Source of the DNA: Sipunculus nudus
Lineage: Eukaryota; Annelida; Sipuncula; Golfingiida; Sipunculidae
Assembly: GCA_026874595.1 (NCBI GenBank)
Contig: CM049318.1
Location: 23,039,456-23,103,455, forward strand
Direction: 5' to 3'
Length of the DNA stretch: 64,000 nucleotides
The position numbers and the translations under genes were made by a program. The notes below the pieces were generated by a model. The model ran no database searches. It saw nothing but the letters and a program-made list of their open reading frames with translations, and was not told the origin of the DNA. Below are positions 11,141 through 60,777 of this stretch, piece by piece. Position 1 is the first letter of the stretch. The number at the start of each line of letters is the position of its first letter.

Positions 11141-11334
11141 CTAAATCGTAGTGGATTTTAAGGTACTATGCGTGTGTTTGTTGATGAGTTCCGTACACTC
11201 ATCCTTATTTGAAAGTATGTCCCATGGATTGAGAAGTAGTTCCTTCTTCTTCCCCTTTTTAGTTTGATCACAAAGGTCAGTCAGGACAGCATGCATAATC
11301 TTGGTTGACCTAAGGCGTTGGTATCGTTCACCAT
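11141..11334 (-). CDS. Charged tail exon of copy B
   Basis: The acceptor is TTGTTGTAG at the upstream edge, phase 1 in. It encodes DGERYQRLRSTKIMHAVL then a KKGKKKELLLNPWD stretch and ends at a TAG stop. Its start resembles the tail exons at 57184-57356 and 28699-28862 (GYTDDKLRRLKQ and GYTDHKLRYFKQ followed by MRR): same phase, and in each case it follows an exon ending in a hydrophobic segment. Function unknown; a cytosolic signalling tail is an inference. Confidence 0.6.
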
Positions 11335-13255
11335 CTACAACAAATATGTTTATTTACCTGTTGCCTCAGGCCTAATATATACATACACACATTCGACGTA
11401 TCGCATAATTTCTAATCACATACGTTTGTGGTAATACATTTTGTTTCTACGGAGAACTTCATCGAAGTATATTTTAATGGTTATTCACCGCAATTTCTTT
11501 TTTTTAAATGTTTATCTTTAGTAGTGCTATATGCACTTCTTTGCTTAGACCCAAAGTATTAATAAAGAAGCCAGATTCTTTAAAAACCATAGCGATACAC
11601 CTTTAACAAGGGGTTTCTGGACTTAGATATGTAGAATAAATGGTGTTTCAATGATTTCAAATAATGCAACCTTAGTTATAAAATTTTACTTCTAACCTTT
11701 ATTTCCTGCATACATAAGTAATATGGCAGATACCAGGGCAGCCAACCATGGACCTGGTTCCGTGGAAACTATACCCGATGAACCGCTTATCGGGTCAACA
11801 GGTGCATACATTGATGCAAATTCTTTCTTCTTCTTACGGAAATCAGATAAAATTCTGAAACTAATGTTGGGTTGACACTTGCTTTGCATTGAACTGGTCG
11901 GCTGGTCAGCGGCAAGGATTGTGCATGACTGGGCAAGATCTTCCCAAGCATCGCTGTCAAATATTCCCTCTTCTTTTGGGAAATCAAGAATTACAAGAAG
12001 CTCCGGAATTTTCTTTTTGATTTCTTTTACCTTTTCCAGAAAATGTTCACGGCTGTCTGAAGCTGAATTGTCGAATGTTTTCCATGTGCCCCAGATGAAT
12101 TGTAACAGGGCTCGCTTAAAACAACTCTGATCAATATGCAATATCCGTCTGATCACTTCCATAGGGAATCTATAATAAAATTCCTTTTCAAGTTCCTCTT
12201 CATAGGCATGTTTTGTTTGAGTAGAACTTAGGACATGTAGATCTATGATTTTTGTATCAAGGTTATCTTCTATTCTATTTAAGTAATTTTCTATGCTGGT
12301 GTATTTCTCCGTAGATTCAGCTCTTTCCTGTAATAAAGTACATTCAATTTAAGTGAGAAATAAATCAGCCTTACAACAAAGCCTGTATCTTAAGTAGAGA
12401 ATTGGAAGTTATAAATATATATGCTCAACTTTTTATCTTATTAAAGTATAACGTATCAACAAAATAAGAACTGGGTGAAAAATAAATGCTAGCAGTACAA
12501 CCAACCTCTTTTTTAGCTTCCTCCCCATACACATCTGGATGGTCCATGTGTCTGGAAATGAAACGTGATTTAAACCAGGTTGTACTAACAAACACGTCCA
12601 CTATATTGTCATGATTTATGATATCCATATCATTTGGCTATTCACTGTGTATCAAATTTCATATTTCCTTTATTTCAAATGTTCATTACTGTTATACATT
12701 ATCTACCTCCTCTTTTTATCTGTTATACGTAAACTAAACGAACTAAACTCCCAAAAGCTGTCTCACCTGTGACCCGGATGGTTGACCTCATTTGGTGATC
12801 AGCGTTGCAGTCAATATTCATCAAAGGGTCCCTCTCGGCGGGGATGGTGCCTGTCGAGTCAGCTTCCACAGGTGTTGTCTGACTGTAATAGAGATCATTC
12901 CATATTTTCGCTAAGAAATGCAGGTTGATGATTTGGTTAGTGTTGTCATAATAGTAAATATCCAGGTTTTATGGCACATTCCTTTATTGTAAATAAACCA
13001 AAATACATGGGAAAATAAAATCAATGTACAATCAATATTTTTTTTTTAATTCCAAAGATGACCGCCGGAAATGTTCTGTATTGGTCTTCTTTGTACAATC
13101 GTATTTACTCTGAATAAGGGTCACATCTCTACCACAGGCTAAAATCCAGATTAAAAGTTTCAGGGTTAGATAACACACTGAGAAGACAGCGAAACATATA
13201 TGTTCAATGTACATTATACTTACTCTGTTGATATTTATTTGTAGAGTAAAATTAA

Positions 13256-13308
<53 letters not shown>

Positions 13309-16300
13309 ACATGTATGTAAAGTGCTTATGACATAATTCAATGCATATAATGAGCGCTATATATATAATAAATTCATATATGTTAATATAACTGTGTATT
13401 TGTATGTCTGCTTTTGTGTGCATTACCTCTCGGTACTGGTGGGATTGTTTCCTGAAGCTTCCTGTGATGATGGAATCCGACCTGCCACAGACACGTCCCT
13501 TATTTCATCGGCCTGTATTTCTTGACTTTAATTGCACGAAACATCACGAAAAGATATATTTATTATACATATAAACTATACAGGAATTTGAATGTTCTTG
13601 ACAAACCAGTTTATCCGGGTTTTTATCTGGTCAAATGGATAGCGGCGAAACATTGTGTTAGACCATGACAATAAATCTAAAGTAGTCATTAAGAAATTTA
13701 TTAACAATACAGGTTATCCGAAAGACTGTAATATACCCACATGGGAAACAAACATACAAATACAATATAAAAGTATGTTGAATTACGAGCCGGAATAACT
13801 AATATGTATATATAAGAACAGATTAAATGAGATTAAAAATGGCTATTTGATAAACAAATCATGCGTAAGTGACGTAAGATTTCAGGATACTACGAAACAG
13901 GAATGATAGTATATTTGACATAAATACATGTATAAACCAAATTTATTTTGTTAGTAGACATACCAATACTCTATATCTCGTTTTCTCATCTTGTTCTTGC
14001 ACCAGCAAAATATTCCACATACTAATAACACTGCGAGAACTACTGTTGTTGTTAGGACAGGGATGATCAAATTAACTATGAAGTCCGAAGATCCGTCTGA
14101 TGGAGAAAAATATAAAAAAAAAAAAAATTCAACATTATGATGGTGCTTTCATAATATTTCATAACACAATGTCGTCAATAACTTTCCCTCCGTCAAACCT
14201 GGAGGATACGACTATAACACTATAGTTACAAGAAATCCTGTTTTGCTTTTACTACGACCAATTCTTAATCCTCACCTGAGTCAGGCACCGTGGGCAAGGT
14301 TGCTAAAACAAAATAAATGAATCTGCACAAACAGAATATTAAAAAAATGTGGGTAAATGATATCTTGACAGGTATTCGTTTTTAAAATGGCCGGAGGAAG
14401 TTTAATGCGAACGTTTTATTGTAGCTAATAAACAGGTGGAGAAGTTCGATGAATAACAGTAAAGTGGCTAAGCTGTAATATGCGTTTCTATTCTCTTCGT
14501 TCCTTAAACAAATCAAGAGCGAAGTTTACATAATCTCTATAGCGAATTGAATTTTTGACCACAGTAGATTGGTTTATACCCCTTAAAGATGGAATATTAT
14601 AATAAATTACTTTTGCACAATTTTCAATTGCTTTTATTTTTTTTTATCATTTTTTCCCAGTATCTGGCGGTTGTGGAATGATTTTGATATTCGGAAGCAA
14701 AATCATGTTTCAGTTATGAGGAAGTCTGTGCTATTTTGAGGAGACCTACTAATTTGCCTGTTGACTGACCCCCCCCCCCCCCCCGTTCCCCGGGAAAATA
14801 ATCCCACTGTAAGGGTTATAAAATGTCATAGTTCCTTAAATAGACGAACGGATTGAACTACCAGTGAATGGCTCAGAGAAGAATCATATAATCGGTCAAA
14901 CACTTCGCCCGGTCTTTGAATATCATGGGTAAGGCTTTACAATAGGATATCGGAACAAACTTCGTTTGTTAAAAAAAGAACCGAGACAAGAATTATATGT
15001 ATACTCACAGCTCTGACAAACTGCAACGCGTTTTTTATTGCAATTAACTGTTTCCCACATCACTTTATCTGATATCACTTGTCCAACAGTACAGTTTCCT
15101 TGATATTCCGGCTGTCCTTCTTGCCAGTGGGAATAGTTAATTACTTTGTTTTCTTAAAAAATAAGAGATACATCTGAAGATAGTAGTGCTCCACAATTTA
15201 AATTTTATGAAACACTGTCAGCAATTTCAAATATATTATCGAAGTGAAGTTGTTATATATGTGTAACCCTGTCTGGTAGCAAAGTACGCTAATTTCAAAA
15301 ATTTTACCCGTTTCCCAGTCTTCCATCCTTAGCCCAATCCAGAAGAAGCTGCAGAGCGCAAATTGAGAAAATTCACTTTTCTTCTCAGCGAATCTTTTGA
15401 CTTTTTTCTCTGTATCCATTTTTGCTAGAGTCATTCCCATTCTTGCACAGAGCATGCGAGCCGTGTAGAAATCATTCACGCCGCAGTCAAATGTATATGT
15501 TGTATTTTCATCCACGAAACAGGGCTCTGATTCATTACATCTGGCTGTACCTAAAATATCAAATCACAGGGAAGGTGCTAGAGATACAACTGGTTATTCG
15601 TAACATGGGCTGGCAGTAATCCAGAATATAATGCCTACCTATTGGTCCATTTGTTCTTCACTGAAATGGACTTTATTTGCTGAATCATATTTAAAATACT
15701 TAACAACGAATATTGCGGTAACTCTCCATCTAATTCTCTCCACATCTTTTGGAGGATTAATATGTGTGATAAAAGAGAATCCATCTTGAAACTTTAACAG
15801 CTGAGTCACCTTTATTTTGGCATATGTAACCTTCATGGTCTCCGCCATAGTTACATCGCATGGGGCGCCTTGAACGATCCACCACTGCAATTCCTCCACA
15901 CACACGACCCAAGGTATCCAACCCAGCCAAGGCATCCGATCCTGTAAGTAAAGTAAAGTAATAGGTCGATAATTATTTATTATATATGTGGATCGCATTT
16001 ATTTTTTTATTCACATATGATACACTGTTTGTTTTATATATGTTGAGAGGAACTATGATCTACCGAGAAGTAAGACAATTCAATTATACAGAGTTACTGA
16101 AACAGCTTCGACGCACTCTACATCCATTTTGATCAATTTTATTCCGAGAATATGTTCAACGACACCTATAGTTCCATCCAGCCATGTCCAGTCCTGTAGC
16201 TTTTGCCTCTTGAAACCCATCCATGCATATGTTAAATTGACATTCTTCATGTATATTGATAAACTGGTGTGGTTAGTCGACAAGGCGGTGATGGTGACCA

Positions 16301-16367
16301 TAACTCTTGCAAAAGTCTACAGCTTCATCGTGGGGCATCTCAATAGGTGAGTGTACAAAACCTCCCT
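11141..16367 (-). CDS. Copy B: two-CTLD type I receptor with long C-terminal region
   Basis: Ten or eleven minus-strand exons: CTLD1a 16166-16367, CTLD1b 15810-15941, CTLD2a 15308-15544, CTLD2b 15009-15152, linker 14276-14302, TM 13964-14096, cytoplasmic 13427-13525, 12767-12882, 12506-12551, 11697-12327 and last exon 11141-11334 (stop TAG 11141-11143). CTLD2 has the classical core SFFWIGLRMEDW, the HWQEGQPEYQGNC loop and a terminal NCNKKRVAVCQ. The EPN/QPD and WND sugar-binding motifs are absent, so calcium-dependent sugar binding is doubtful. The TM helix (FIVNLIIPVLTTTVVL...) is followed by CKNKMRKR, a stop-transfer signal, giving type I topology. Exons from 1b to the tail join in frame by phase. 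CTLD1a is 202 nt where 201 is expected; the frame breaks near 16,283. About 614 codons by the long route. The signal exon is not certain; a decayed candidate lies near 17,470-17,540. Confidence 0.75.
11697..12551 (-). CDS. C-terminal module of copy B (large exon plus small exon)
   Basis: The large exon 11697-12327 (631 nt, phase 0 in, phase 1 out) follows a small exon 12506-12551 encoding HMDHPDVYGEEAKKE. It begins ERAESTEKYTSIENYL and is acidic and lysine-rich, probably helical, through FPMEVIRRILHIDQSCFKRA and a KEIKKKIPELLVILDFP stretch. It ends with a hydrophobic segment (PWLAALVSAILLMYAG) before the donor AAAG/gttag. I do not recognise the domain. It might instead belong to a separate downstream gene starting at MDHPDV, but the phases join it to the 13427-13525 exon in frame. 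Copy G has a similar hydrophobic-plus-tail ending, so the arrangement is likely real. Confidence 0.6.
13259..13304. repeat. (AT)n microsatellite
   Basis: Alternating AT tract in a copy B intron. Confidence 0.95.
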
Positions 16368-16369
16368 CT

Positions 16370-18180
16370 GAAAGTGTCGCACGAAATCGGTATTAATTAC
16401 TGAAAAATGAATAATTTTTCTCACACTTTTGAAGTTTCACTGTTTTTGTATCATATACATTCTAATACCTGATATCTTAGGTACAACCCACCCTAGTAAT
16501 AATAGTATACTTTTAACAAGACATGATTTGGTTTTTGTTTGCCAAATATAATACGCCTATTAATATCATATTTATTGTAAGTAATAATACCAAACCTTTA
16601 TTGAGTGCTACATGCGACGGGTGTCTGACTTCCAATGTAGCGGATTAAATCTGCTTCGTACAATGGGGGTCTGACATAAAAGGGTTGCGTTCTAAATCCT
16701 TATGACCTGACGCTAACATAAACTTTGAGGCGATCATAATGGGATGGCTTAAGGACGCCACTGACCTATACCATGTGAGAATATATTGAACATTTTGTTT
16801 GTTCGAATGTTTGTTTGAGCGACTGGAGATGCCTATATATACATATCAACTGATTAAATGCATATAAATTGGACAGAATTAAGACCATTGTTTATCAACT
16901 ATAATAGGAAACTTTCATTTCGTTCGAGAGATATTCCATGCGATAACACATATAATCATTCTGCTCATTCCTAATCCCTATGTTTAATGTGTTGTAATTG
17001 TGTTTAACGAAGCGGGCCGCTTCCTGTGATCAAATGCAGGTCGCTTCACTACGCTGAAGCCCGACTGGACCCGCCCCCCCCCCCCCCACCAGAACCGTCG
17101 TAGGGAGGACAGTCATATTTTTAACATGCAATAATTTGGTCTGGGTAATAGAAGAAATACACCCTGTTGAACAGGGGATGCCTCTTACCTATAATGTGCA
17201 AGAGATAAATAACAATAAAGCCACACAGGTATATCTGAAAGAAAGAAGAAAACAAAATCATCAGTTAGATAATGCTAACTCACTGGGAGATATGCAGATA
17301 AAAAAAGTAGTCAGGATTTAATCGGCTGGTGTATATATGTTCTAAGAAGCACATCATATTTTCTTATAGTGACATGCCTGGTATTTCTATCATGACGTAA
17401 TTATTTCCTGATGTATACACACGCCCATAGTAATCAAGCACAAGACGATAGTGTACCAAGGACACATTCACTACTAGTAAACCCGCTAGCAAGACATATC
17501 GATTCCATTCACGATACTCACCATGTTGTAGTTCCGGGCCACTGTAACCGGTTGGACTTGGGACGAAATTTTGAACAGGATCAAGCACGACAATGTACAC
17601 GTCTGCCTATTCCGAGATACATCTAGGCAAACCCTCCATATCACCAAACCCTCCCGGATGTGGTTATAGTTAGTTTTTAAACATATAAAGCAGGCAAATC
17701 ATATGATTTTTAACTCTACTTTGGAATGCGTCTCACTTCCTTTCCCTTAGGCAACACACATAGCACGCCCGTTGAAATTCGGGAGCCACAAAAAGTATTG
17801 CTAAACATAGCTATAACCATAGGTATGCATTGGTAACCGTGCTTACGGCTGGAAATCCCCTGCAAGGATCCACATAAAGCTGGAGACACCCGTTGGTCTG
17901 TCCCGGAGCAGTCCTGTCATATACTGATGATTGTAGAAGTTCATTTCTTTGATGATATATCAGAAAAAAAACAGACATAACAGATTTTCTTCTGATAGTC
18001 ATGAAAAATGAAAGGATTATCAAGTAAAGGTAGTTTGACTTGGCATAAGGTTTTATATGTGCACCGCCTATATCGATATAAGACCCCGTAAACCAGGCGA
18101 CATGTAATTTTATGTTGGCAAGTTTTCGTTGAACAGTTATTGTTACTTCGTGTAGCAGGCACAGCCAAACCCTACACTGA
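16370..18180 (-). repeat. 5' part and flank of copy B, paralogous to 22,550-24,130
   Basis: Long stretches match the flank of copy C in the same order, for example the CATAATGG stretch near 16,735 and 22,856 and the ACACATTCACTACTAGTAAA stretch at 17,461 and 23,584. A hydrophobic stretch on the minus strand near 17,470-17,540 (RYVLLAGLLVVNVSLV) could be a decayed signal peptide. Relative to the copy C version it lacks one base, and the frame from ATG hits a stop. This marks an old tandem duplication of the gene's 5' region. Confidence 0.5.
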
Positions 18181-20990: not shown

Positions 20991-21668
20991 TTCTTGTCAT
21001 TTGGGGATTACTCCCATACAGAGCTCGATTTTCAATCACTAATTAATCAAATGACAATATGCTTCTTTAGTTTAAACATATTTATTTTAAATAAGCGATT
21101 GGCAAACAGCAATACTGCTATGCAAATGCTCCTCGCATCACCATTGTACAATACGATATGCAACATAATATACAGTCGAATGATGATGTGAATGAACAAG
21201 CGCTTTGTAGGTCACAGTTATCTTCACATTGTCATAGTTAGCCTTCATGGTCTTCGCCATATTTGCATCCCATGGGCTGCCTTCAACGACCCACCACTGA
21301 AATTCCCGCACATACACGACCCTGGGTATCTACCCCAGTCATAGTATTCGATGCTGACGATAAAGGGAAGTATTTTATACATTGATAATTACATTTATTA
21401 TCTAAAAATCTCATTTTTTTCCATATATGACACACTAGTCGTTATTCATATTTTGAAAGAAAGCGATCTACTGAGAATAAAACTATTTCAATTTGGCAGA
21501 GTCATAGAAAGAGCTTCCACACATTCTGCAGCCATTCTGAGAATATGTAATACGACGCCCATAGTTCCATTTAGTCATTTCAAGCCCTGTAGTTTGTGCC
21601 CTTTTGACTGCCATCCAAACATTGAAACGTTGTTAAATTGATATTCTTCATGCATATTGATAAAGTGG

Positions 21669-22466
21669 TGCCACGAAATGGATCGTGTCAATCCTTTTAT
21701 TTATTTTCATTTCTCGGGTTAACTGTACCGGATTAGCTGTACATTTGTATTTGTTGAGCTAGAAGTGACGCGCCGGTCAGAACTCTATTTCCTTAACGAT
21801 GGCCGCTTTCAAGGTAATTTGGGTGAGTGTATTGCAGGCCTTTGATCAATAGCTCTGGGGATCTAGTTAAGCCTTTTGATTAAAGCGATCGCTTCAGAAT
21901 TATCGTTATTTTTTGTTCCCAGCCTATTTAGTATTCAGCGTGCTTATGAATTAAGATTGGCCTCCGGGGTATTTAATACCTACAGACGATTATTTGAGGG
22001 TCAGACACAAAGTGGAGCCCGTAGAGACAAGAAATACCGTCCGCCCCTGTCCAGTGAGTAGCCACTGCAGAGTGACAAGTGAGGTGCTGTCCGATGAGGT
22101 CCCGCTGCCCAGTGACCAGACAGGTGTCCAGAGAGGTGTTGTCGCCCAGTGACCGTAGAGGTGTCCAGAGAGGTGCTGTCGCTCAGTCACCAGAGAATTG
22201 TCCAGTGAGGTGCCGGCGCCCAGTGACCAGTGAGGTGCTGTTAAGTGAGGTGCCAGTTAGCAGTGAGGTACTGTCCAGTGACTTGTTGTCCAGTGAGGTG
22301 CTGTCTTTCGAGGTACTGTCCGGCGAGTTCCTGTCAAGCGAGGTGCTGTCCAGTGAGGTGCCGCTGCCCAGTGACCCGAGAGTAGCTTTCTAGCTGTCAC
22401 GTTGAACCAAAGACAACACGGTCCGTCACTTGGCAAGGGGAAAAGAGGAACTTTTATCGGGTGACA
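21669..22466. mobile_element. Solo LTR inserted in the copy C CTLD exon
   Basis: It begins TGCCAC and ends GTGACA, a near-perfect short terminal inverted repeat with TG...CA ends. It is flanked by AGTGG (21664-21668) and ACTGC (22467-22471). The unoccupied paralogous site in copy B (near 16,260) reads ACTGG, so both flanks are one substitution from a single 5-bp target duplication. No internal region is present. Element family (Gypsy, Pao or other) not determined. Confidence 0.75.
22062..22385. repeat. Minisatellite inside the solo LTR
   Basis: Imperfect tandem repetition of a ~15-30 base motif around CCAGTGAGGTGCTGTC, with variants such as CCAGTGACCAGAG and GTTAGCAGTGAGG. The 104-residue frame at 22,079-22,393 is only this repeat read as protein (SSEVLSSEV). 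Confidence 0.85.
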
Positions 22467-24343
22467 ACTGCTGTGGTAAGTGTTGTCGAGAAGGCGATGA
22501 TAGTGACAATTGCTCTAACCAAAGTCTATAGCTGCATTGTGGGGAATCTCAGTATCTGAGGGTATAAACCTTCTCTCTCCAAGTATTCGGGCAATCGGTG
22601 TATATTAATGAATAATGAATGATTATCCTCACATTTTGGAAGGTAAATTGTATTTGTTTCAGATACATTTTAATACCTGATATCTAAGCAAACAAAACAT
22701 GAACAACACATCTTAATGATAATAGTATACTTTTACGGAGCGCTACGTGCGACCTCCGTTGTAACGTATATATTCTGCTTCGTGCGATAGGGGTCTACCA
22801 TCAAGGGCTGCGTTCTTAATCCGCAAGACCTGACGCTAACACGAACTTTGAGGCGTCATAATGGCCAAGCTTTAGGCCCCGCTGATCTATACCATGTGAG
22901 AATATCGAAGATTTTTTTTGTTCGAATGTTTTTCGAGCGAGAGTTGATTATATATGAACATGTTAACTGATTAAGTGCATATAAATAAGACAGAATTAAA
23001 ACCATTGCTAATCAACTATTGCTAATCAACTAAACTTTCATTACTTTCGCCCGAGAATACACACATAATCACTGCTCGTGCCTAACCAATATTTTCAATG
23101 TGTTGTGATTGTATTTTATTCATTAACTACGACCCTAGACCCCTGTCGCCCGAAGAGGGTCCCCTTCCTGTGATAAAGTGCTGGTTGCTCTACTTCGCTT
23201 CAACGTGACTGGTCATAAAAAAGGGGGGGGGGGGTGTCGCAGGATACGTCGAAGGAAGGAGAGTCATACATTTAACATGCAATCATTTGGTCTGTGTGAT
23301 AGAATCTTACCTATATTGTGCAAGAAATAAATAACAATAACCCCACAAAGGTATATCTGAAAGGAATAAAAGAAAATCACCATATTAATAATTCTAAATC
23401 ACTGGAAGTTATTTAAATATAATGAAGTTGTCAGAATTTAATCGTCTGATGAATATATGATCTAGGAATCACATCTTACCTTTCTTATAATGACATGCCT
23501 GGTATTACTATCACGAAATTGCTCCCTGTAATATACACTAACACCTAATTGTCTAGAAAAGTGACAGACGCTTGTGTAACATGGACACATTCACTACTAG
23601 TAAAGCAACTAGACCAGACATATAAATTCAATACACGGTACTCCCCATATTGTAGTCAAATGGACTTTGGAACGTGTCTCTGTGCAGTCAGCTCAAGAAA
23701 CACACAGCATGCCCGTTGAAACCTCAGCCACAAAAAAGCATTGTTAAAGATAGCTTTCGTCACAAGCATTCACTGGGAACCGTGATTACGGCCAGAACCG
23801 TCGTGTTCCCAATTGTAACGCTCATGTTTACAGTGCTTAAGGCTAGAAATCTATTGTAAGGATCCACGTAAAGCCACAAGTTTTGAGGACATTGAAGGAG
23901 ATACCCTTTAGACTGTCCCCCAGCAGTCCTGACATACCGGCGATCGTAGAATTTCCAATCTTTGATGACATATCATGTTATCTTCGGACAATCAGGAAAG
24001 ACGCAAGAATTAACAAGTAAAATGATTGTATAATGTATGCTGCTCATTTCCAGGTATAAGACCCCGTGACCCAGGTGCCATGTCATTTCTGTTAGCAAAT
24101 TTTCGTTTGGTCAGTTTTTGTTACCTGATGAAGCTAGCACAGCTACTCTGACACCAAAGTAAAACAATAGACTGTCAGGTGGGCATAAACGAAATTTGAT
24201 CTGCTGTTATGCTATTCAAATATTGCCAAACGTTTGTGCTACCTCTTTATTGTTGATTTGCTTAGTGCCGTGTATTAAATAACACGTCTTATCAGCCTTA
24301 AAATTATTACGATTTTGAAAGCCGCATAATGTTATACCCCGGG

Positions 24344-47681: not shown

Positions 47682-49882
47682 CTTTTCTTTTTCGACTTTT
47701 ATAAAGACAAATTGATAGTATGATTATAACTATCTCTAATGCTGTATTCAATATCCCGACCACTACTGGTTTGACCCGTGTTTGCATTCCAGCATCAACT
47801 AAATGTATTATAACAATGAAAATCATCAAATAGAAAATATAAAATACAGGGTAAAACCTCTGTTTAAATGTAGACAATATACGTGCTTACAGAGAAAACT
47901 ACACTGATTTTGTATTCATATACCTAGGGATATATTTTATGTTTCAGACTATTTTAACTGTTTTAGTACTTTCAGGCTGTTGCTAGATTGAACCAGGACA
48001 TATTTGAGGAACAGGTCAGGGATTCATTTAAAAGTATTTAGATAGCGCATCAAATCGCTTTGGGTTATATGCAATATAATTACTGGATAGGGGTTTCTGT
48101 ATAATCAGTACAGGATCCTATACGTTGTATAAAATGGTAAAGGCTCAATTCGGAGGATAAAGCATTTACCTTTATTATTACAACGACTCTTTATAATGTG
48201 TTACAAGCAAACCATAAACTTGAGCATGAGTAATATTGGTAATTTGCGCCATTTATATTTGCTTTATTATTCATTAGCCTGTTTAAGAACAGCAACTCTG
48301 CTAACGTAATTGTATATTTGTTTTTCGTCGATGGGATGCACACAGTTATTAACCCTACGTATGTATTCATAATTCCGTATTCGTTATGTTTTAATAGTTG
48401 GCACTAATCTAATAACATTGGCTAAATACAAAACATAAAAACAAATTAAAAAAATAATCGCTACGTCTTTATTATACTACTTTTAAAAAATTCCAAAATC
48501 CAGTATATCTACATACTAGAGAGCTAATCCAGTCTAAATAGTACATGAATTCATATATTTAAATTATTTCTGCAATAAAACATCAGCATACCTGTTGTAT
48601 TATTGTAAATGTCCAATGACATTAAATTAGATTTCTTCCCTCTTTTTCAGGTTTCCTATGGTCTGTGAGACACATGTATAAGGAATAATAACCTATGCCT
48701 GAATAAAAAGGGCCAGATTAACTTCAGATTAAGGGTAGTTTAGGGGTAGAATTGCCATATTGTGCTGTATGTTAATACATAAAATGTAACGACATATTAA
48801 GAAATAAAAAATGACCAGCCTAAATCATCCTCAAGGGCTTACCCTATATACAGATACCTATAGGTTTTCGGTCACATCTTATAGCACTCCATACGACAAT
48901 ATCCTCTTTGACTTTTGCAATGGCGCAATCAGTAACAGCGTTAGGTTCCCCTGAAACCCAGCGATACGTCTGTATTCTTCTTTCTGAGAAACAAGAAAAT
49001 ATTACTTATTAAAAGTGATAATAAATGAGAGAGTACTTAAACTGAGTAAAATTTGTCTCTGTGACACACCGGGTGCCTGAGGATGAAAAGCAGTTGCTTC
49101 ATTACCACATTTTTTTTGGTCACAAATGCCAAATGCAGAATATAATTTTGATATATCCCTGCTAAATAAGAAATACCTAAGATTGATTCCTATAGTTTAA
49201 GTTTTACCCTTATCAGAAGAGCCGGATCTGTACCAGTCTTCTTTGCTGAGGCCGACCCAAAAGAAACCACAATATAACATGGCAGGTTCGTACGCCTTGG
49301 CTACAGACAGGGCATCTATCTTGCCTTGAGTATCCAGTTTATCTATCGTCGCGTTTCAGGTAACACAAAGATCTTTGGCATCGTACCAGCTACTTACACC
49401 GAACTGAAAGGTTAAGTTCATACCACTTTCCTGAAAGCATTGGGTGTCCTCGGCAGGACAAGCCCGCTCGTCTGAAAAGAAATTATTTATGATAAAATAT
49501 TTTCTTGAGTTCTTGAGACTGTCTCTAAAACTACGTTCTTAATGTAAATGCTTTATTTTTACAAATGCCTTCTTGATCATACAGCCGTGTGTATATAGAG
49601 GGTTATCTGTAACATACCGGTGATACCAAATTGGACTTACGTTAACAAACTACCCCATTGTTGTATCCTCCATAATTACATCGCACTGGTTTTATCGACC
49701 TTGTCACCGAGGATACACCTACACAGGCACGGTTAAAAGGCTCCGGCTTAGGCAGGAAGGGCGCCGCTAATGAAGACAATTGAATGTGTTTCATTGTAAA
49801 TATTATAATTACTCCCTGAAGAATATGAATAAGTATACGAACACTTCCATAGTAATGATTGTATTATCATGTTGGTTTTTTT

Positions 49883-49962
<80 letters not shown>

Positions 49963-50816
49963 CTCTGAAGAAAAACAACACTGTTAATTCACAACAGACT
50001 GTTTCACCGGATATATATATATAAAACATAAGGACACAGAAAACCTGACTTAATGTGATCACCTTTCATTGAATATTTATATTTTTAGATGTATTACTTT
50101 GGTATCATTAGTAATCCATAGTCAAAAATCACATTCAGTAATTTGCGAACAGTAAAGAATATTTTAACGGTTCATATGATAGTTTCTCGCCGATGACATT
50201 AGTGTAGGTTCTATTTTGTGCAGTATCCTCCATTTTGACAAACGGGCCATGCGGTTTTCTAACATACCTGTATCACCATCTGCCCATGTCCAGTCACTGA
50301 AAGATTTTCTTTTTATTCCCAGCCACACCGAATTTAACCTATTTCTTCGCATGTATGCTTGCAGTGAAACACCAGGCACTGAATTATCTACAAGGTAGTA
50401 TAACAACGGCACACCTTCACAGCAGGACTCGGTAACTCCCTTGGTTAACGATGCTTTCATGTGGCTCACGTCGAAGCCTGCAACTGTATAATTCAGAATT
50501 AACATGATCAATTTTCTTGATCTATCAGTATCGGCAACATTATAGCTGCAATCGAAATAAAATTTCTATTGCCTGGCTAGAAGTAGCTTCTAGCTAGAGC
50601 TACTTCTATCTAGACACATTCTGGGTGTTTATAATATTTGTTCGTCTACTGAATAGGCAACCCCTGTCAGATAATTTTCTCTTTCATGAGTTGATTTACT
50701 GTTGGAATCTACGTTTGCATCCCTATGCTTGAACGCACAATGAAATATCAAACGTCAAACCTACCTCCATGAGCCCACGCACTGATAATCAGCGCTGCAA
50801 AGTATATGACCGCCAT
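47682..50816 (-). pseudogene. Copy F: near-identical twin of copy E
   Basis: Exons shift from copy E by 6935 bases left of the (AT)n tract and 6959 right of it: signal peptide 50765-50816, CTLD1a 50268-50483, CTLD1b 49641-49766, CTLD2a 49208-49471, CTLD2b 48843-48983, TM 47682-47798. The same three in-frame stops are present, so the gene was already broken before it was duplicated, or the stops are tolerated. The next sequence downstream on this strand is the unit 1 LINE, so no tail exons can follow directly. Confidence 0.8.
49884..49961. repeat. (AT)n microsatellite in copy F
   Basis: About 78 bases against 52 in the twin tract. Confidence 0.95.
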
Positions 50817-51875
50817 TCTGTGTCAATAATTGCCAGAATTCCACCCTCAACCAAGTCACTTCTTCCCAAACTGATCTGTAATTGTATAGTAATTTAATAA
50901 TTAGTTATGTACACCTTGCATTGTCATAACTCAGTATAGATTTATTCACGAAGTATAAACCTGTCCATAATATTTGCAGTTTAAATTTGATACAGTTGTT
51001 TACAATACTACCATGGGAGTGTCTAGGCTGACATTCATATGGGTACCGTCCAATACCGTGATCGACCCTTTGTTTGTGATATGAATGTAATTATTTTTAG
51101 TCTATGCGTGTTAAATTATTTCGTGTCAACAGTTGAATACGTTCTAACCTTTGTGAACGTTTGCGCAGCAGGATCAAGTCATGTGTATGTATGTGGTTAT
51201 AAAATGGATTCACACCAATATGAAGAAATTCAATATGGCTTGGTCAAGGACGGAGCGGAGTTTATTTTTGGCCGATTAGTTTTACCACTTCACGAAATAA
51301 TGGTGTCTGCAAAGCAAGGTTAAATTCCATAGAGCGCAAGACTTTGGTTTGTTTACTAGGATCTGAGAAAATCCAAACCGAGTAATGGTATGATCAAGAG
51401 GCACATTGATCAGCATTACACTATTAAATTTATATTTACCATTACATTGGCAGCTTGATAATGACTTCGGCCCAACTATCCAACATTCAGAATATTCACC
51501 TTTCATTTATTTTCTAAACAAAGCCTCTTAACCGCATTTTTAAACAAGGAAGCATTAAAACCCGAAAAACAGAGGACAGGAACCGTCATGTATGTTTCGA
51601 CTCCATCTAGTTCAGGACATGTCCTGTTTAAATCGGACATCCGTTAACGCGGCCGTGTTATGGTAAACAAACAAACCCGGACCGTGTTTGCATGAAGAAC
51701 CATAATAAGGTGTAAAGCAACTTAATGGGAAGTACTCAGACCGAGTTCTGGGATGGATTTGCTGGAAAACATTTGTATAAAGCAAAATGGAACTGATATT
51801 GTATAATAATAGGCATAATATTGCTTCTGATTACGTCCCTTTTACTATGAGTAGACTGTACGCATAAGGTTCATA

Positions 51876-51919
<44 letters not shown>

Positions 51920-51922
<3 letters not shown>

Positions 51923-53577
51923 TATGTATGTAAGCACTAACTTCATACACAAATTGATTAGGAACTCAAAATCAAAAACGTCAACTCTTGATCCATTGCC
52001 AACATGGTTAATGAAGCAGTATACGGAGGAATTACTGCAAATTATTTCAGCCATTGTCAATTCCTCTCTGTCAACTTCAACTTTTCCAACGGCCTTCAAG
52101 CATCCGCGGGTCTATTCACTCATTAAGAAACAGGTTCTTGGTAAGAGTCTCTCAGTAACTACAGACCTGTATAAAAAACCTCAGTTTTGTCTCCAAATTG
52201 ATCGAGAAAGCTGTCTTGGACCAACTACAGAAGCATCTTGCTGAAGCTGAGGTGTGCGACCGCTTTCAGTCTGCGTACAGAGCCTTTCATTCCACAGAGA
52301 CAGCCTTCTCAAGGTCCAGACAGACATTATGAATAGGCTTGATGAGGGTTTGCCAGTAGTTTTGGTTCTTTTAGACTTGTCTGCAACCTTTGATGCATTA
52401 GATCACCGCATCCTCCTAGACAGGTTAAAGCATGTCTGCGGCATCAAGTCAGAGGCTCTCGAGTGGTTTGAGTCTTACCTTACTGGCCGCTATAAAGCTG
52501 TTCAAACAAACGATGCTGTGTCTGATGAGAAACCTCTGCCATATGGCTTCCCCCAGGGCTCATGCCTCGGGCCACCACTTTTCTCCATCTACACTCAACC
52601 CCTTGGGGAGCTTATTCAACATTATGGTGTCAACTACCACTGTTACGCAGATGACACTCAACTTTACCTTTCCTTTCGTCTAGACCAACCCTTTGAATCG
52701 CTCGCCAAACTCCACAAGTGCATATCTGAAGTACGTATCTGGATGTCACACAACATGCTAATGTTAAATGACAGTAAAACCGAAGTCATTCTATTTGCAC
52801 CTAAGGCGAAACTACACCTTCTGAAGGACTTCAGTGTGCCAGTCGGGGACGATATTTGTTTGTCCAAAACGATAGTACGCAATCTCGGTGTAAAGCTGTC
52901 AAATGTGACGTCCATGAGCAATCACATCGACTCAGTCTGTCAGATATCATTTATGCATCTCAGAACGATTGACAAATTTAGACAATATCTTTCTTCTGGG
53001 GCTACAAAAACACTTGTACATGGTTTAGTGCTTTCTTGTATCAATTATGCTAATTCCTTTCTCTGCAACGCTCCGGACTATTTCCTTTTAAAACTCCAAC
53101 GGGTACAGAATTCTGCAGCGCGAATCATAACCAAAACACAGAAATTTGACCACATAACTCCCGTACTGATTTCGCTTCACTGGCTACCTATTAGGCAGCG
53201 TATTGATTTCAAAGTACTTTTACTTGTTTTTAAAGCTTTGACAAACGTGGCACCAGGATACATTTGTGACCTATTACAGCTCAGAACTGCACCCAGGACA
53301 CTAAGGTCTTCTACCTCACACTTTTTAGTCACACCAGTTTGTAGAACTGTGACTTATGGTGATAAGTGTTTCAGTTGTTACACCCAGAAACTCTGGAACA
53401 GTTTACCTGACGGCATCAGGAATGCTGGATCTATTCCCACTTTTAAGTAACAACTCAAAACTTTTCTTTTTAAAAAGGCTTTTAATCTGTAATGTAGCGT
53501 TATGTAAAGCGCTCTAGAGTTAATAATTTTTACACCAGGGCGCTATGCAAATGTTGCATAATAATAATAATAATAAT
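51920..53577 (+). mobile_element. 5'-truncated CR1/L2-like LINE, copy in unit 2
   Basis: Twin of the 44,971-46,628 element, carried along by the duplication rather than a second insertion. RT frame 52,254-53,450 differs by one noticed residue in motif A (SAAFD to SATFD). The same frameshifts, early stop and (ATA)n tail are present. Confidence 0.85.
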
Positions 53578-53803
53578 GTATAAATATATATACATATCAG
53601 TGTAATTACTCATAACGGGCACCTCTGTACTAAGGCCCCCTACTATTTGCGGCCACTTACGGGGAGACCCTGAAGAGTATTTCCCGACATATATAACTTC
53701 CTTATTAAGATCCCGATTTTTTCAGGGGGCAAAATGTCCGGTCCCGTCAGTGTCGGTAATTCGAAAGTTTTAATATATATATATATGGAAATATATATAT
53801 ATA

Positions 53804-53871
<68 letters not shown>

Positions 53872-54149
53872 ATCTCATTCAATCGAGCAGCAGGATTGCT
53901 ATCGGTTTTTGATTTTGTCAAACAAAGGCTTCAATGATAATATGATCCTTGCTTTTTCTTATATGCTTATTCCTGTAAATTTGTCATTTAATGGGGTAAG
54001 TGCTCTAGGCATCAGTAATATAATTTAGATAATTGTTTCACCATTGTTAGCCTTCAGGTCTTTAAACCCTTTTCAAACCTTTTCTCATGGTTAAATGAAT
54101 TGTTACGGATATATGTTGAGCGTCAATTGTTCATTACAGTGTTCTCTGC

Positions 54150-54270: not shown

Positions 54271-54739
54271 TCCCTTCTGTTTTACTGAGAACGCTGAATA
54301 TCCCGAATACAAAATGTTATTTCTTTACTTGTATCTCAAAATCATTTTCCAATTATTGCAAAAACTATATAATAATAATAATTATTATAAAAATCACAAT
54401 AAATCATAATAAATAATAATAATATGTCTTTTGTTAAGCATAACATCCACTGTGTTGAGCTCTAAAAGGCTATAACAAGCAAGCAATTGCATAAAAAATA
54501 CTGACTATAAAAAAATCGTTAAATAAAGATGCAGACTAAAATTTATATAAGAATGCTTGTTTTTTTATTTCAACGGTATTGATTACACCAAAATGGGACC
54601 TGCCACACAAAATGCTCTTTGAGCAACCATCGAAGACTTTGTACGTGGTACAAGTGATGATCGGCTTATTTGAGGCATCTAACTGGTGTGTGCGAATGAA
54701 TTAGATCTTGTAAGTAGAACGGAGCTTTGCGATGGTGGG

Positions 54740-54965
54740 TCTTGAAAAGTTATAAAGCTGCCTTAAATTTAATGCGCTGACTCACAGGGAGCCAGTGTAG
54801 GTCACGCAATACAGGTGTAATGTGATCATACTTGTCATATCCGCTTGGCACACGGGATTCCCTGTTCTGAACTCGCTGAAGCCTCTGAATTAATGTAAAC
54901 TGATACCTAAGAAGTAAGGCACATCCACAATCTAATTTATAGCGACACAAGCGTGGATCAGGCGC
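54740..54965 (-). mobile_element. CR1/L2-like LINE fragment
   Basis: The minus-strand frame has LQRVQNRESRVPSGYDKYDH and VLRDLHWLPVSQRIKFK, the same C-terminal RT block as the LINE at 45-46.5 kb but clearly a different, older copy. Only this block survives. Confidence 0.8.
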
Positions 54966-55510: not shown

Positions 55511-56830
55511 AACAAGATGGTATGAAACTGTAAAATGTTAGCTCTTCAGATTCAGTTAAATTTAATCTTAACGGCACGTTCTCAAACATTACGGATTCGC
55601 ACTTTTGCTGAAACGTGTTTTGATTTTCCTATATCATTTCATTGTTGCGTGTATTTTATTCTCACGACAGACGTAAGTAGACCTGTATTGCGTGGCATAC
55701 CTGCATCTAACATAGTTTTGTTAAGCTGAATTGTCAATAGGAAGGAAGAGCAGGGAGATATGGGCAAATATGTTTGGTTAAGTCGAAATAAATTGTTGAA
55801 TGTTTGCCTTTAATATCAAAATTCAAATATTTGAATAATTACTTTTTCTGCCAACCTACCTCATTTTGAGCTTTTAAATATCTCAATTTAGGGGTCATCT
55901 GGGATCGTATTGGGTAGAAGGAGGCGCTGGGTCTTCATTCTAAATGGTTATCATAAATACAAAATTACATAAAAAATTTTAAAAAAAAAATAAAAAAAAA
56001 ATTAAAAAATTCTCTCTACAGACGAAAACAAATTCACATGAAAGATCAAGGAAAAGTCATGTTAGAGACTTTAGAATATAAGGATCACAACTGTTTATAC
56101 ATAAGGGATCATGCCCTGGGGCTTATTGGGATTAAGCTTCAGATCACGAGGGGCTGGTTTGTGAGAGGTTGTGTCCTCCTTCCGTGGTATAGAACATATA
56201 CACACAACCCGTTTTGCGTACATACCATATCCGACCTGGACTTGTCTTTGTTATACGTGGACTGATGATAACCTTTTCAACCTTTACAGCAGCCTGTAGA
56301 CGACCCGATCACCTCTCTGTAAATTTATGACTGGCTCGTACATGGAGCGCATATCGTGGGTGATATAGTACATATAGATAACAGTTGTATATATATATTT
56401 ATATTTTTTTGTTTTGGACCAGCTTGCTGCTAGTGGTTTCGTGAATAATCATACAAAATTATCAACTACGTCAGCCTTCTGTTAAACAGGCCAACATAAC
56501 AACAACAGTGCCCGGCACTTTTATTCAAAGGTTGTGAAATCTATGTTGCTTGGTTGGCACAATAAAGTACATCAAGTACACCCCCAACTCACTTGGTAAC
56601 TGACACCTGGAAGCTAGCTCACAGAGAACTGTGATAAAATTTAGGATTCTCCTCTTACCTTCACTTTTAAAGCAAGCGATATACCTGGTAGTCACTGGTG
56701 AAACTAATCATACATTTTAACCAGAAAGTGCTAAGCTATTTTCTGGTTTGATACGTGTTATCGTGTTTGACAGTAAACCTTTGCCATCGTGATGTCATAG
56801 TTATACATCTACCTTATCAGTCTGTTTGCT
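55510..56830. other. Intergenic DNA, nothing recognised
   Basis: Contains an A-rich run near 55,975-56,010 and a 75-codon frame at 56,038-56,265 (+) with no recognisable domain. From about 56,840 rightwards the sequence becomes paralogous to 28.34 kb. Confidence 0.35.
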
Positions 56831-57183
56831 TCAATAAGTACAACTGCCACTATTCTCCAATTTATAAGAGAATATAGGGAAGTTAGCAGCAGCTACGAAC
56901 GTTGGACCTTTTCACGAATTAAAGAACCAAAACAAAAGCACAGTAAGCACAACGACAATAAAAATTTTAATCTCTTATGAATCTTTACGGGAACCTCTAC
57001 AGTTGCAAACGGCAGGGAGAAAGTCTTTGTTTTGTACAAAATATTAACAAGGAGGAGAAACGTTAAGTAAATTGCATAGTTTTGTATGATAATACATAAC
57101 ATATGTAAGATGACCTATTAGCTTATGAAAATAATCCATTTGTTTAACAGTGTTATAAGTAGTTTGGATTTAGCTTTCTGGAG

Positions 57184-58007
57184 TCAATCGTTTACATCAT
57201 CGAACTCATTAATGACTGCTGTGACATAAGCTAAGTCCATTATTAGTGTTTCCAGATAAAGCATGTGTCTTCCTTCATTTTCATTTGCCATCTCCTGGAG
57301 TATACGCCTCATACTGGAAGCCTGTTTAAGTCGTCTGAGCTTGTCGTCTGTGTATCCTAAACACACATTTTATATCATTCATTTGACGCATTAACCAACC
57401 AACAAAAAAATAATCAAATCTGCATTTACTGGAATATCGGAATGGAATAGAACTGGACATGCAGTCATACGTACCTTTCGCTTTGAAGATCAACATGACA
57501 ACCACAACCAGCATGGCCACAGTCCACTCCTTGACTCCTTGACCTCTGGTGACCTGTCTTCCAGTGCAACTAGGTGCTTTCTATCTTTGGTATGTTCAGG
57601 AACAAATATGTCTACACGTTCTGTGCTGTTATTCTTTGTTACTGTAACTGCACTCTTAGCTCTGTTGTCACATAATATGTCGCCGGGTACGATTATGCCT
57701 ATCAGTTTGAATTTGTCAGTATGTGACATGGCTTATGACGTGACATAGAAAACGAAACCATGGCCTTGAAATTACAGTGAAATCAACTTTATGAACAGCA
57801 AGTAGTGGGTCTGCTTCAAAAGATATTAATGGTCGATCGTCATATTCAATTGTGTGTGACCTGAAAGGCGTGATCTCAAATACGTGGCAGCGATATCCCT
57901 CTATATCATTTTTCAGTATAACGTGTAGATAAAATGAACAATCAACACTTGTGATCAAATCCCACACGGTTTTTTTCATTTTGTTTCCAGATACGTAATT
58001 GTTCATG
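57184..58007 (-). pseudogene. Copy G C-terminal module (cytosolic domain, hydrophobic segment, tail)
   Basis: Three parts on the minus strand. The exon opening at 58007 joins the TM exon (58434-58563) in phase 2 and encodes DLITSVDCSFYLHVILKN and GYRCHVFEITPFRSHTIEYD. A following open region (about 57,475-57,730) encodes a GIIVPGDILCDN stretch and, in another frame, WTVAMLVVVVMLIFKAK before the donor AAAG/gtacg. Tail exon 57184-57356 encodes GYTDDKLRRLKQASSMRRIL and ends VINEFDDVND, stop 57184-57186. The middle region is two bases longer than its copy D match, near GTCAAGGAGTCAAGGAG, which throws the hydrophobic segment out of frame. I do not recognise the domain. The boundary between the first two parts is unclear. 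Confidence 0.6.
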
Positions 58008-58433
58008 CTGCAAAATTGTGAATGTATATATGAAAATTTGGATATTTAAAATCCTGCTCTATGCTATAAGCAATGCAATTATAAATATATAAATCAAGAG
58101 ATTCGATTTGAATATATTTGCGTAAACTCAAATTCGGTTTGTGTATATTTCTGCACATCGCTTGCCTTGAACACTATCATTATCTCACGAAGGAAAATAA
58201 GAAAAAATGGCAAACAAAACATTCTGCTGTTTAATGTAACAACATCATCAGCGATACCCGATTTGTTCAATTTTCTGTTCATATATACGATAAAAGTTCG
58301 ACCTTTTTTCCAAATACAGTTCAGTTTAAATATTTCACCCTTATGTATTTTTACGAGGTTGTGTTCGAGTAAACCTGTTTCTTTTTTATGCAAGGAAATG
58401 TGTGAGCAGCACAAAGAATGGAAAAAAACTTAC

Positions 58434-60777
58434 GTTTTAGTTCCTCGCTTCGTCTTTCTTTTTTGACGTTTATAAAGATAAAGTGATAGTATCATTATCA
58501 ATACTGCTGGAATAAATATCCCGATTATTAATGGTGCGACGTGTGTTTGTGTTCCAACATTGTCTGCACGCATGTGTACAAAATAGATCATCAGATGGGA
58601 AAATGTAAAATGTAGGGTAATTTTACCGGCTTACACAACAAACTCTACTAATTATTCATTAATATATTTGGAATATATTATGTGGTTCAAAGGAGAAAAC
58701 CTATTGCTGTTTATTCAACGGAAACGGGGGGAAAGGGTTTACAGGAATGCTTGATAATCGTGATCGAAGCATATTTGAGGATGTCGCGTGATAGGAGGCG
58801 GATGCTGTTGTTACATAGTCATAGCTGAATGCATGAAATATTCAAAGGAAACAGATACAGTTCGAAATAGTTAATTCTCCAATGGCTGATAATAAAATAG
58901 TAAATTAACTACATTCGTGGGGTATAGATTGTATAATTGTACGTATAATTGCGGTACCATGAAGAGTTATATACGCTAGTCTTTCTAATACGTTTCGAGT
59001 ATCAATGGATAACCATTGCTAAACACGTGACTTTAATTTGAAGGGACTCTAATGAAGCATTAACATCCCGTATGTTCTATGCAGTATAATTTTTGGGGAT
59101 TTTCCTGTAGATTGAGGAAAACATTATATACTCTTCGTGTAGCACTTGGAAATCACAAGAGCACGGAGACATACCATAGAGCTGATCTGTTTAAAAAAGA
59201 CACATTAAAGCATAACTTGTATGAATTTTGTTGAACTAAAATGCAGCATACCGTGACATTTTGGTGAATGTCCGATGAAAATGTATCATTTACTGTTCCC
59301 TTTGTTTCACAGTTTTGATAGGCTGTTACACACAGGAACCGAAACAAATATGAAGCCATGAACTGGCGCGACCATACAAGATTAGATTTACTTACTGGCA
59401 CGTAGGAATGGGATATTCATAAGGTGTTGGATATTTTTTTCTTGAAATGTCACGATATGTGATGAAAGAATGAGCAAATGACTAGTATGCCTTATAGGAC
59501 TTACTCTCTGTGCAGACGGCTACATGCTTCTGCTGACATTTTACAGCACTCCAAACTACGATGTCGCGTTTGACCTCCACAACGGCGCAATCATTTCCAA
59601 CGATGGGATCTCCTGGACCCCAGTGAAATTGCTGTATTCTCATATGTGAGATACAAGGAAATGTTTTTTTATGAAAAAAAAACCTGCGTTGGGAAGTATA
59701 TAATTTATTCCGTATGTGATTACTTGAATAAATTATTTTTTTTTCTTGTGAGATAATTTTCATATGAATTCAATATCTCTCTTCTATTGTTTGAACAGTA
59801 ACTTATAAATGTATGACTTACCAGAAGAACAGCTCCTGTACCAGTCCTCTTTGCTGAGACCGACCCAAAAGAACTCACAAAGTGACATGGTATCTCCCTT
59901 CCCCTTGGCTACAAACAGCGCTTTTATCTTGCTTTGGGTATCTAGCTTAGCAATCGTGCTGTTCCGGTTTTTACAGCAATCTCTGGCATTGTACCAGCTG
60001 CTTACACCGCATTGAAATGAAAAACATATACCACTATCCTCTAAGAATTGTCTGCCCTCGGCAGAACACGGATTCTCATCTGAAAAGTAATCCATGAAAT
60101 CATAACATTACTCCTTCCTAGAAATGGCGGCTGTATAGGTTTTTTTTCTTAATTCAAATATCATATTGTTACATATACCTTCTTAGTCAAAGAATATGTC
60201 TGATTGTAAAAAGTTATGTGATCAGATATAGCAAATGGATGACTATGGTTCTTCCTTACGTTCACACACAACCACCTCGTGGTGCTCTCCGTAGTTAAAT
60301 CGCATTGGTTTCATCGACCTCGCCACTGTTGATACTCCGCCACAGGTATGGGTTGCACGGTCGACGACAGTCAGGAAAGGTCTCGCTTACAAACACAAGT
60401 TTAATATTGACCTGATATATAACCTGAAATGTTATAACTGTCGCGTACTCTCTTAAAGTAAAAGGAACCTCAAGAGAACATGCTGTAACTGTGATATCAT
60501 TTTACTGGCGACAAATCATTTATATATTTAATAATTTTGAATCAACAGTGATTTATAATCACCAACACTTTTCTGTTATCTTTAACATGTACCGAGTTTA
60601 TCGAGTCCGTAGTGACTTTTTATAAATATATGTTTTAGCCCATTATTGGCAATACATTAGAGAGCATTTTTCTACATCTAGACAGACGATTCATTTATGA
60701 TCATACCTATATCACCATCTCCCTATGTCCAGTTAGTGAAAGATTTTCTTTGAATTGCTAGCCACACCGAATTATGT
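58434..60777 (-). pseudogene. Copy G: CTLD receptor, 5' part lost
   Basis: Exons: CTLD1a fragment 60707-60777 (SVWLAIQRKSFTNWT, then TAG where the family has Trp), CTLD1b 60260-60385 (THTCGGVSTVARSMKPMRFN; Phe where copies B and E have Cys), CTLD2a 59822-60079 (CGVSSWYNARDCCKNRN and CEFFWVGLSKEDWY), CTLD2b 59505 to about 59646 (GNDCAVVEVKRDIVVWSAVK, ending VAVCTE), TM 58434-58563 (PLIIGIFIPAVLIMILSLYL, then KRQKRKTKR). The CTLD2b acceptor that is CAG in copy E is CAC here (59646-59648); the next AG breaks the frame. No signal peptide: retroelement sequence begins at the CTLD1a edge. Individual exons are well kept, so the loss looks fairly recent. Confidence 0.77.

Follow-up and report, generated by a model that had tools for sequence, protein, structure and literature searches.

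Receptor Copies in the Window

The window, by which we mean the whole 64,000-nucleotide stretch of Sipunculus nudus DNA analyzed here, carries copies or remnants of CTLD receptors at seven loci (A, C, D, E, F, G and H), and all receptor exons given below lie on its minus strand. Exon profiles matched this strand with E-values down to 1e-49 and, among the best matches listed, none fell on the plus strand at E < 0.1; since the profiles were built from the window copies, matches to those copies are to be expected, yet the contrast between the strands is unaffected. The first-pass annotation was thus right about the minus-strand location of the two-CTLD exon sets. Its count of at least seven copies sharing one exon plan is not confirmed, since the complete head set (signal, 1a, 1b, 2a, 2b and TM) is kept by C, F and G, whereas degraded copies are found at A and H and mere fragments at D and E, and F and G represent a single duplication. 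Its remark that several copies carry different lesions was an understatement: every window copy has at least one lesion in the exon models made here, and the damage differs. The frames are interrupted by TAA, TAG and TGA alike, which rules out an alternative genetic code. An Rfam search returned nothing at gathering scores. Splicing is predicted from sequence throughout and one assembly was used, so that any given lesion may be a private allele.

Copy C has a head at 13964-17261, with signal (17261-17189), 1a (16367-16166), 1b (15941-15810), 2a (15550-15308), 2b (15152-15009) and TM (14096-13964) exons, and its exon 1a shows an 8-bp deletion relative to the open neighboring gene L031 (see below). 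Four cytoplasmic tail exons follow at 11692-13525, namely t1 (13525-13427), t2 (12882-12767), t3 (12551-12506) and t4 (12327-11692), the last of which encodes a 211-codon orphan domain. These exons were first proposed from splice sites and then borne out by L031; the plan drawn earlier ended with TM and missed them. Exon t2 of C is a net two bases longer than that of L031, which shifts the phase, and a weaker donor might restore it.

Copy A (2521-5060) has all six head positions (signal 5060-5000, 1a 4905-4689, 1b 4377-4279, 2a 3938-3700, 2b 3519-3368, TM 2620-2521), but its 1b is interrupted by an in-frame TGA, its 2a has a frame change, and its TM exon is out of phase, has TAA at its start and meets a stop directly after the membrane helix. 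Copy H (58434-60776) retains a partial 1a lacking its 5' part (60776-60707, with a TAG), 1b (60385-60260), 2a (60079-59822), 2b (59638-59505) and TM (58563-58434), and no signal exon was recognized in it. Copy D (21216-23450) consists of a signal region, a 1a split into two pieces by a tandem-repeat block, and a 1b with three stops; 2a, 2b and TM were looked for in this copy and not found. Copy E (28315-30128) is reduced to a weak TM-like remnant (30036-30128; 7.0 bits, E 0.14 against the exon profile) and a 3' flank that resembles the flank of H (56811-58014; 72% over 1272 columns). A 96-residue tail exon of H conserved with E (start 58007, end near 57714) was considered and not kept, having a weak frame signal, a pN/pS of 0.66 and 4 stop codons. 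The proposal that all introns are of phase 1 agrees with the GT-AG, phase-1 introns of C (outside the 8-bp deletion in 1a) and of F, but the 1b acceptor of F is uncertain, the 1a and 1b phases of A do not fit and the 2b exon of H has no in-phase acceptor.

The Neighboring Open Gene and Its Tail Domain

The plan of the family can be read from L031 (C13:23,016,689-23,024,391), which lies 15 kb to the left of the window and is an open 10-exon gene of 611 residues with consistent phases. It encodes, in order, a signal, CTLD1 (two exons), CTLD2 (two exons), TM and a tail of about 300 residues on four exons ending in a 212-residue domain, and with its splicing predicted from sequence this is the intact plan of the family. 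By eye, the translations of A, C, F and L031 include a signal-like exon, and those of C, F, H and L031 a TM-like one; t4, too, ends in a hydrophobic stretch.

The t4 of C, open over 211 codons, is 54% identical to that of L031 (E 2.6e-67). Between these two genes, the CTLD segments show a dN of 0.08-0.09 and dN/dS ratios of 0.34 (0.19-0.78) and 0.26 (0.13-0.52), and t4 shows a ratio of 0.45 (0.31-0.65), indicating that the heads and t4 were under constraint; TM plus t1-t3 yields 1.02 (0.59-1.87), i.e., no constraint. Overall, the tails have changed more than the heads between C and L031. Synonymous divergence is likewise lower in the CTLD exons (0.27-0.31) than in t4 (0.67), which could reflect gene conversion of the heads, but intron identity is mixed (0.74-0.82 in the head, 0.64-0.80 from 2b onward).

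Pfam, sequence and profile searches, hhalign and AlphaFold gave no confirmed fold or family for t4, and a signaling role for it is therefore a guess. The AlphaFold model of t4 alone had a mean pLDDT of 35.8. Three candidate identities were considered. Heme oxygenase was suggested by a phmmer match of C t4 to PDB 5kzl (E 7e-4) that was absent among the matches of L031 t4 and weakened to E 0.046 with a two-row profile. TIR, a likeness seen by eye, scored 13.5 in hhalign against three TIR sequences, inside the range of 40 column shuffles (7.1-18.0), with no Pfam TIR match, and SEFIR, also seen by eye, found no support in Pfam.

Lectin Domains and Ligand

The signal-to-t3 portion of L031 (399 residues) matched only Lectin_C (PF00059) in Pfam, in two stretches (44.9 bits, 2.2e-11). 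In the window, the reading of the translated exons as CTLDs was upheld by the joined CTLD2 exons of C (30.6 bits) and H (28.2 bits), both above the curated cut-off of 22.6 bits, but not by CTLD1 of F alone, which scored 14.9 bits. Classical calcium-dependent sugar binding by C-type lectins goes with an EPN or QPD motif together with WND. The first-pass observation that the CTLDs do not combine the two holds for each of the four distinct 2b exons that were read, those of A, C, F and H, with F having EPN without WND. Their joint absence makes an unusual ligand plausible for the window receptors, as far as motifs can tell.

Family History and Selection

In the same 1.43-Gb genome, 150 matches to exon 2a were scored among 422 candidates, in clusters on several contigs, and eight of the 150 lie at C13:22.89-23.19 Mb, all on the minus strand. 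Separately, a hand count put mobile CTLD frames at about 56 of 151. In the 2a-exon tree, the groups at 21.6, 9.2-9.3 and 56.2 Mb each form a clade, whereas the 22.9-23.2 Mb array does not: C groups with L031 and L032, F with H, and L029 with L030. Part of this array may therefore consist of older neighbors instead of recent local births, although F/G, and C with its neighbor, are clear cases of local birth.

This family history bears on the view, taken at first pass, that the array consists of diversifying recognition receptors, in which new copies with new binding faces would be selected for immune recognition and the pseudogenes would be a by-product. The size of the family, its spread over several contigs and the clades formed by position are in line with it, and immune gene families expanded by tandem duplication have been described in oyster (PMC4346834). 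However, of 15 pairs compared in sister clusters, 14 have a pairwise dN/dS of 0.13-0.25 over their CTLD segments (the remaining pair, L035-L036, has 0.76 with a wide interval of 0.28-2.85), and it is the head, not the tail, that is better conserved between C and L031, at 0.26-0.34 over the CTLDs. The CTLD segments are under constraint rather than overall diversification in this pairwise test, which is blind to selection at single sites. The diversification claim is not supported by this test, and we regard immune diversification as a possible but rather unlikely driver.

A Recent Duplication Inside and Tail Repeats Beside the Window

Copies F and G occupy a tandem duplication at 40026-53930, whose units (40026-46963 and 46961-53930) each hold one receptor copy and one LINE. 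Copy F (40730-43857) comprises signal (43857-43806), 1a (43518-43309), 1b (42831-42706), 2a (42536-42273), 2b (42048-41908) and TM (40863-40730) exons, with three nonsense codons: TAA as the last codon of 1b, TGA in 2a and TAG as the last codon of 2b. Copy G (47665-50816), whose exon ends were set by their offset relative to F, has the same exons and the same nonsense codons. The 6.94-kb units are 99.14% identical when indels are counted, differing by 8 substitutions (0.12%) and 3 indels, all in AT microsatellites. Since F and G share the three nonsense codons and differ by so few substitutions, the duplication took place after the copy had died, and the common codons count as one set of events. 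F versus H gives a relaxed dN/dS of 0.59 (0.41-0.82) over 230 codons.

A second set of repeats lies next door. The t4 domain has 13 matches in the genome, found only in this array at the sensitivity used, and 11 of them are open and about 10.2 kb apart, downstream of a single intact two-CTLD head. The ten spacings range from 10,195 to 10,255 bases, and one of the t4 copies has a different score. The one extra tail unit sampled lacked a head at the expected place and consisted of TM, t1, t2, t3 and the beginning of t4, at 99.6% identity. A comparison of two 10.2-kb units over 3.2 kb showed 7 substitutions and 2 gaps. This might be a locus with one head and many tails, in which the head may splice to any tail and the orphan tail domain is the amplified part, a reading that we hold to be improbable.

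Such closely similar units, and the exact abutment of F and G, could also arise if alleles or repeats had been joined end to end during assembly, which would make artefacts of F and G and possibly of the eleven tail repeats as well. We think this improbable too, given that real substitutions separate the units, that the t4 spacings and one t4 score vary, and that F and G meet in what looks like an ordinary duplication joint.

A stop far upstream of the final exon normally leads to mRNA decay, and it is very improbable that F and G live on as secreted single-CTLD proteins, with signal and CTLD1 released, even though the signal exon and 1a of F are open and the TAA of 1b directly follows the final CTLD cysteine, as the 1b acceptor is uncertain and the F-H ratios are about equal for CTLD1 (0.51; 0.25-0.99) and CTLD2 (0.48; 0.28-0.74), and so do not point to selective retention of CTLD1.

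A Probable Decayed Receptor Array

We consider it highly likely that the window covers the decayed section of an array of predicted type I membrane receptors, whose plan is read from L031 and whose turnover is mainly local duplication instead of selection on ligand specificity. The first-pass reading of two-CTLD membrane receptors in turnover is supported in this form by the single strand, the varied damage and the one very recent tandem pair. In the intact receptor, the CTLD pair would bind an extracellular ligand by a route other than the classical EPN/QPD-WND calcium-sugar site, and the signal might be relayed through the tail domain, the latter being a guess. A dead copy was duplicated again very recently to give F and G, and local duplication that copies live and dead pieces alike would drive turnover more than selection for new specificities.

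A generic diversifying lectin array is thereby replaced by a testable gene plan, in which a two-CTLD receptor carries a conserved cytoplasmic domain that is unclassified. A lectin array can consist mostly of pseudogenes and a dead copy can be re-duplicated, a warning against taking the number of CTLD loci for the functional repertoire. Splicing to the tail repeats next door, if it occurs, would be an unusual way of building a receptor locus.

Comparison with Known Systems

The receptors resemble PF00059 lectins in CTLD2 of C and H and in both stretches of L031, and differ from them in the 2b motifs of the window, in the sub-threshold CTLD1 of F and in the phase-1 intron that splits each domain. 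The bivalve membrane CTLs CgCLec-HTM and ScCTL-1, covered in a review, also place the lectin domain outside and a membrane helix C-terminal to it, but CgCLec-HTM is listed there as single-domain (PMC12842671), in contrast to the two CTLDs and the tail of about 300 residues with a conserved domain described here. A literature search, with subscription journals largely outside its reach, found no paper on this two-CTLD/tail plan.

Members of the mannose receptor family carry a cysteine-rich domain, an FNII domain and eight or more CTLDs. They are type I receptors with more than one CTLD, as is predicted for the receptor described here, whereas the ectodomain of L031 has only Lectin_C, with two CTLDs instead of eight or ten, and its tail is much longer. 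Clustered protocadherins, in turn, have repeated cassettes beside a single partner segment, an arrangement shared by the neighboring locus. Here, however, it is the tail that is repeated instead of the head, and splicing among the cassettes would add little variety because they look nearly identical.

Receptor copies and their lesions

Seven receptor loci (A, C, D, E, F, G and H) lie in the window. Profiles for exons 1a, 1b, 2a, 2b and TM, built from copies seen in translations and run against all six frames, located matches at A, C, D, F, G and H, and every match with E <0.1 among the rows listed falls on the minus strand; the scores of those copies used in the profiles are not independent, as the copies sit inside their own profiles. 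What is left of E is a weak TM-like match (7.0 bits, E 0.14); the 3' flanks of E and H are 72% similar. Thus, of the at least seven leftward copies at 11141-60777 plus one at 2.5-5.06 kb proposed by the first-pass annotation, the strand stands but the count does not: there are seven loci in all, E being only a remnant. The single exon plan with phase-1 introns proposed there holds in C and F, whose signal, 1a, 1b, 2a, 2b and TM exons are bounded by AG/GT with phase-1 junctions as read by sequence (except for a deletion in 1a of C, an uncertain 1b acceptor and a TM donor that is not fixed in F), but not in E or in D, where the exon-profile search of the window did not find 2a, 2b and TM. The suggested Pfam Lectin_C check succeeded for the joined CTLD2 exons of C (30.6 bits) and H (28.2 bits; cut-off 22.6) but not for CTLD1 of F (14.9 against 22.6 bits).

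The first-pass remark that several copies are broken is an understatement, in that each window copy carries at least one lesion in the gene models used. Compared with its open neighbor L031, C has lost 8 bp from 1a, and its t2 differs by a net two bases close to the end. In F and G, 1b ends on TAA, 2a contains TGA and 2b ends on TAG; H has TAG in 1a and a 2b without a usable in-phase acceptor; A has TGA in 1b, a frame change in 2a and an out-of-phase TM exon; and D has three stops in 1b and a 15/37/45-bp tandem repeat block between two 1a pieces. An alternative genetic code as the cause of the stops was rejected, since TAA, TAG and TGA are all among the lesions.

Duplication of a dead copy and other repeats

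F and G occupy head-to-tail units (40026-46963 and 46961-53930). The differences between these are 8 substitutions and three indels in AT microsatellites; all three nonsense codons are shared, so that the lesions of F and G go back to a single series of events. That no indel lies outside a microsatellite makes frequent base-level assembly errors unlikely for these two units. Both units carry the same LINE, copied along with them, with reverse transcriptase frames on the plus strand at 45302-46501 (RVT_1, 1.2e-18) and 52251-53450; a related minus-strand relic lies just past the second unit (54654-54884). As read from these units, an already dead copy was recently duplicated.

Elsewhere in the window, a 336-bp unit stands in tandem at 33712-35917 (6.4 copies), and one related copy lies apart at 6291-6544; the unit's relatives in L031, L042 and L047 mark it as a dispersed repeat. 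An inverted pair (7554-8487 and 10676-9808; 83-84% identical, about 1.3 kb apart) may be a mobile element whose arms are inverted.

The open neighbor and the repeated tail

The 1.43-Gb assembly holding the window (C13:23039456-23103455) was searched with exon 2a of H. Among 150 matches scored of 422 candidates, eight lie at C13:22.89-23.19 Mb, all on the minus strand, and further clusters lie on C13, C12 and C9, among others. Around C13:23022487, the ten predicted exons of L031 join stop-free into 611 residues with AG/GT at the junctions, in the order signal, CTLD1, CTLD2, TM and t1-t4; junctions are phase 1 up to TM, phase 2 at TM-t1, t1-t2 and t2-t3, and phase 0 at t3-t4. Pfam recovers Lectin_C in two stretches up to t3 (2.2e-11) and gave no match with t4. 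All four tail exons are present in C too, within the coordinates given by the first-pass annotation, and the t4 of C (12327-11692) shares 54% identity with the L031 t4 (E 2.6e-67).

Out of 15 candidates, a whole-genome search with t4 of C (E up to 0.01) gave 13 matches, none of them outside C13:22.91-23.05 Mb. Besides C, they comprise eleven copies, all open and stepped 10,195-10,255 bases apart (ten at E 2.3e-63, including L031, and one at 1.2e-62) and one broken fragment between the window and L031 (G000:C13:23032011-23032268; 36% identity, one TAA), which by its sequence is a further dead tail. As a DNA query, the head of L031 found full identity once, then C at 78%, then pieces of D; weaker matches on other contigs were mostly to one intron stretch that looks like a repeat (40 of 133 candidates scored). 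In the one extra unit sampled of ten, which was read except for about 0.5, 1.7 and 2.2 kb, 23007000-23010200 matches L031 at 99.6% identity (7 substitutions, 2 gaps) from TM through t1, t2 and t3 into the beginning of t4, and no head was found in 23011900-23014300, its expected place if the unit copied the L031 layout. The tail also holds a second stretch, 75% similar, with t1- and t2-like frames. For t4, a heme oxygenase (one match) and a TIR domain (a resemblance by eye) both failed on testing, and a single-sequence structure model was unusable.

Constraint and local birth

The first-pass annotation had proposed a diversifying recognition array, whereas pairwise dN/dS ratios, which are blind to single sites, point to constraint. 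Between C and L031 the ratio is 0.50 (0.40-0.66) over 595 codons: 0.41 (0.07-2.00) in signal, 0.34 (0.19-0.78) in CTLD1, 0.26 (0.13-0.52) in CTLD2, 1.02 (0.59-1.87) in TM plus t1-t3 and 0.45 (0.31-0.65) in t4. F and H give 0.59 (0.41-0.82) over 230 codons, leaving out codons that are a stop in either copy (CTLD1 0.51, CTLD2 0.48, TM 1.47 (0.70-3.81)). In profile-found exon segments of sister clusters, excluding pairs with <80 codons or dS >1.2, 14 of 15 listed pairs fall at 0.13-0.25; the fifteenth, L035-L036, is at 0.76 (0.28-2.85). Stops are present in segments of L036 and L037; seven of the listed pairs involve only the six copies free of them, and these give 0.16-0.25. These CTLD segments are thus under constraint as judged pairwise, with which selection at single sites is still compatible. 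Synonymous divergence between C and L031 is lower in the CTLD exons (0.27-0.31) than in t4 (0.67). Intron identities in aligned parts, at 0.74-0.82 within the head and 0.64-0.80 from 2b on, are mixed as evidence for head exchange.

In a FastTree of 23 sequences of exon 2a, taken from 21 loci, which do not include L036 and L039, and from two mobile-element frames, the groups at 21.6 Mb, 9.2-9.3 Mb and 56.2 Mb form clades. The 22.9-23.2 Mb array, however, is split (C with L031 and L032, F with H, L029 with L030), and the two C12 loci fall apart as well. Local birth is thus shown for some of the groups but not for the array as a whole.

About 56 (hand count) of 151 matches in one genome search, spread over contigs C1-C17, are CTLD frames without introns, 359-382 or 441 codons long and scoring almost the same. 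In six places two or three stand in a row, 1.4-1.5 kb apart, as at L049 (1468-2616 and 3047-4372 of G000:C17:12215000-12220000). The 441-codon frame matches L031 across both CTLDs (E 5e-16), and Lectin_C is found in two stretches (8.6e-17) or one (3.5e-10); the pattern suggests a mobile element or provirus, present in many copies, that carries relatives of the window family.

Proposed function and known systems

The gene plan, the constraint on heads and t4, the decay in the window and the recent F/G duplication are borne by the sequence itself. The product would be a type I receptor: its CTLD pair may bind a ligand by other means than the classical sugar site, and its tail domain may signal. 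The array would turn over by local duplication, taking live and dead pieces alike.

Three loci (L002, L005 and L007) resemble perlucin-like lectins, which would point to a mollusc as the probable source. Among the papers listed in the literature searches, none deals with the two-CTLD head-plus-tail plan. Among related systems, C-type lectins with membrane helices are described in bivalves (PMC12842671), and oyster immune genes are known to have expanded in tandem (PMC4346834).
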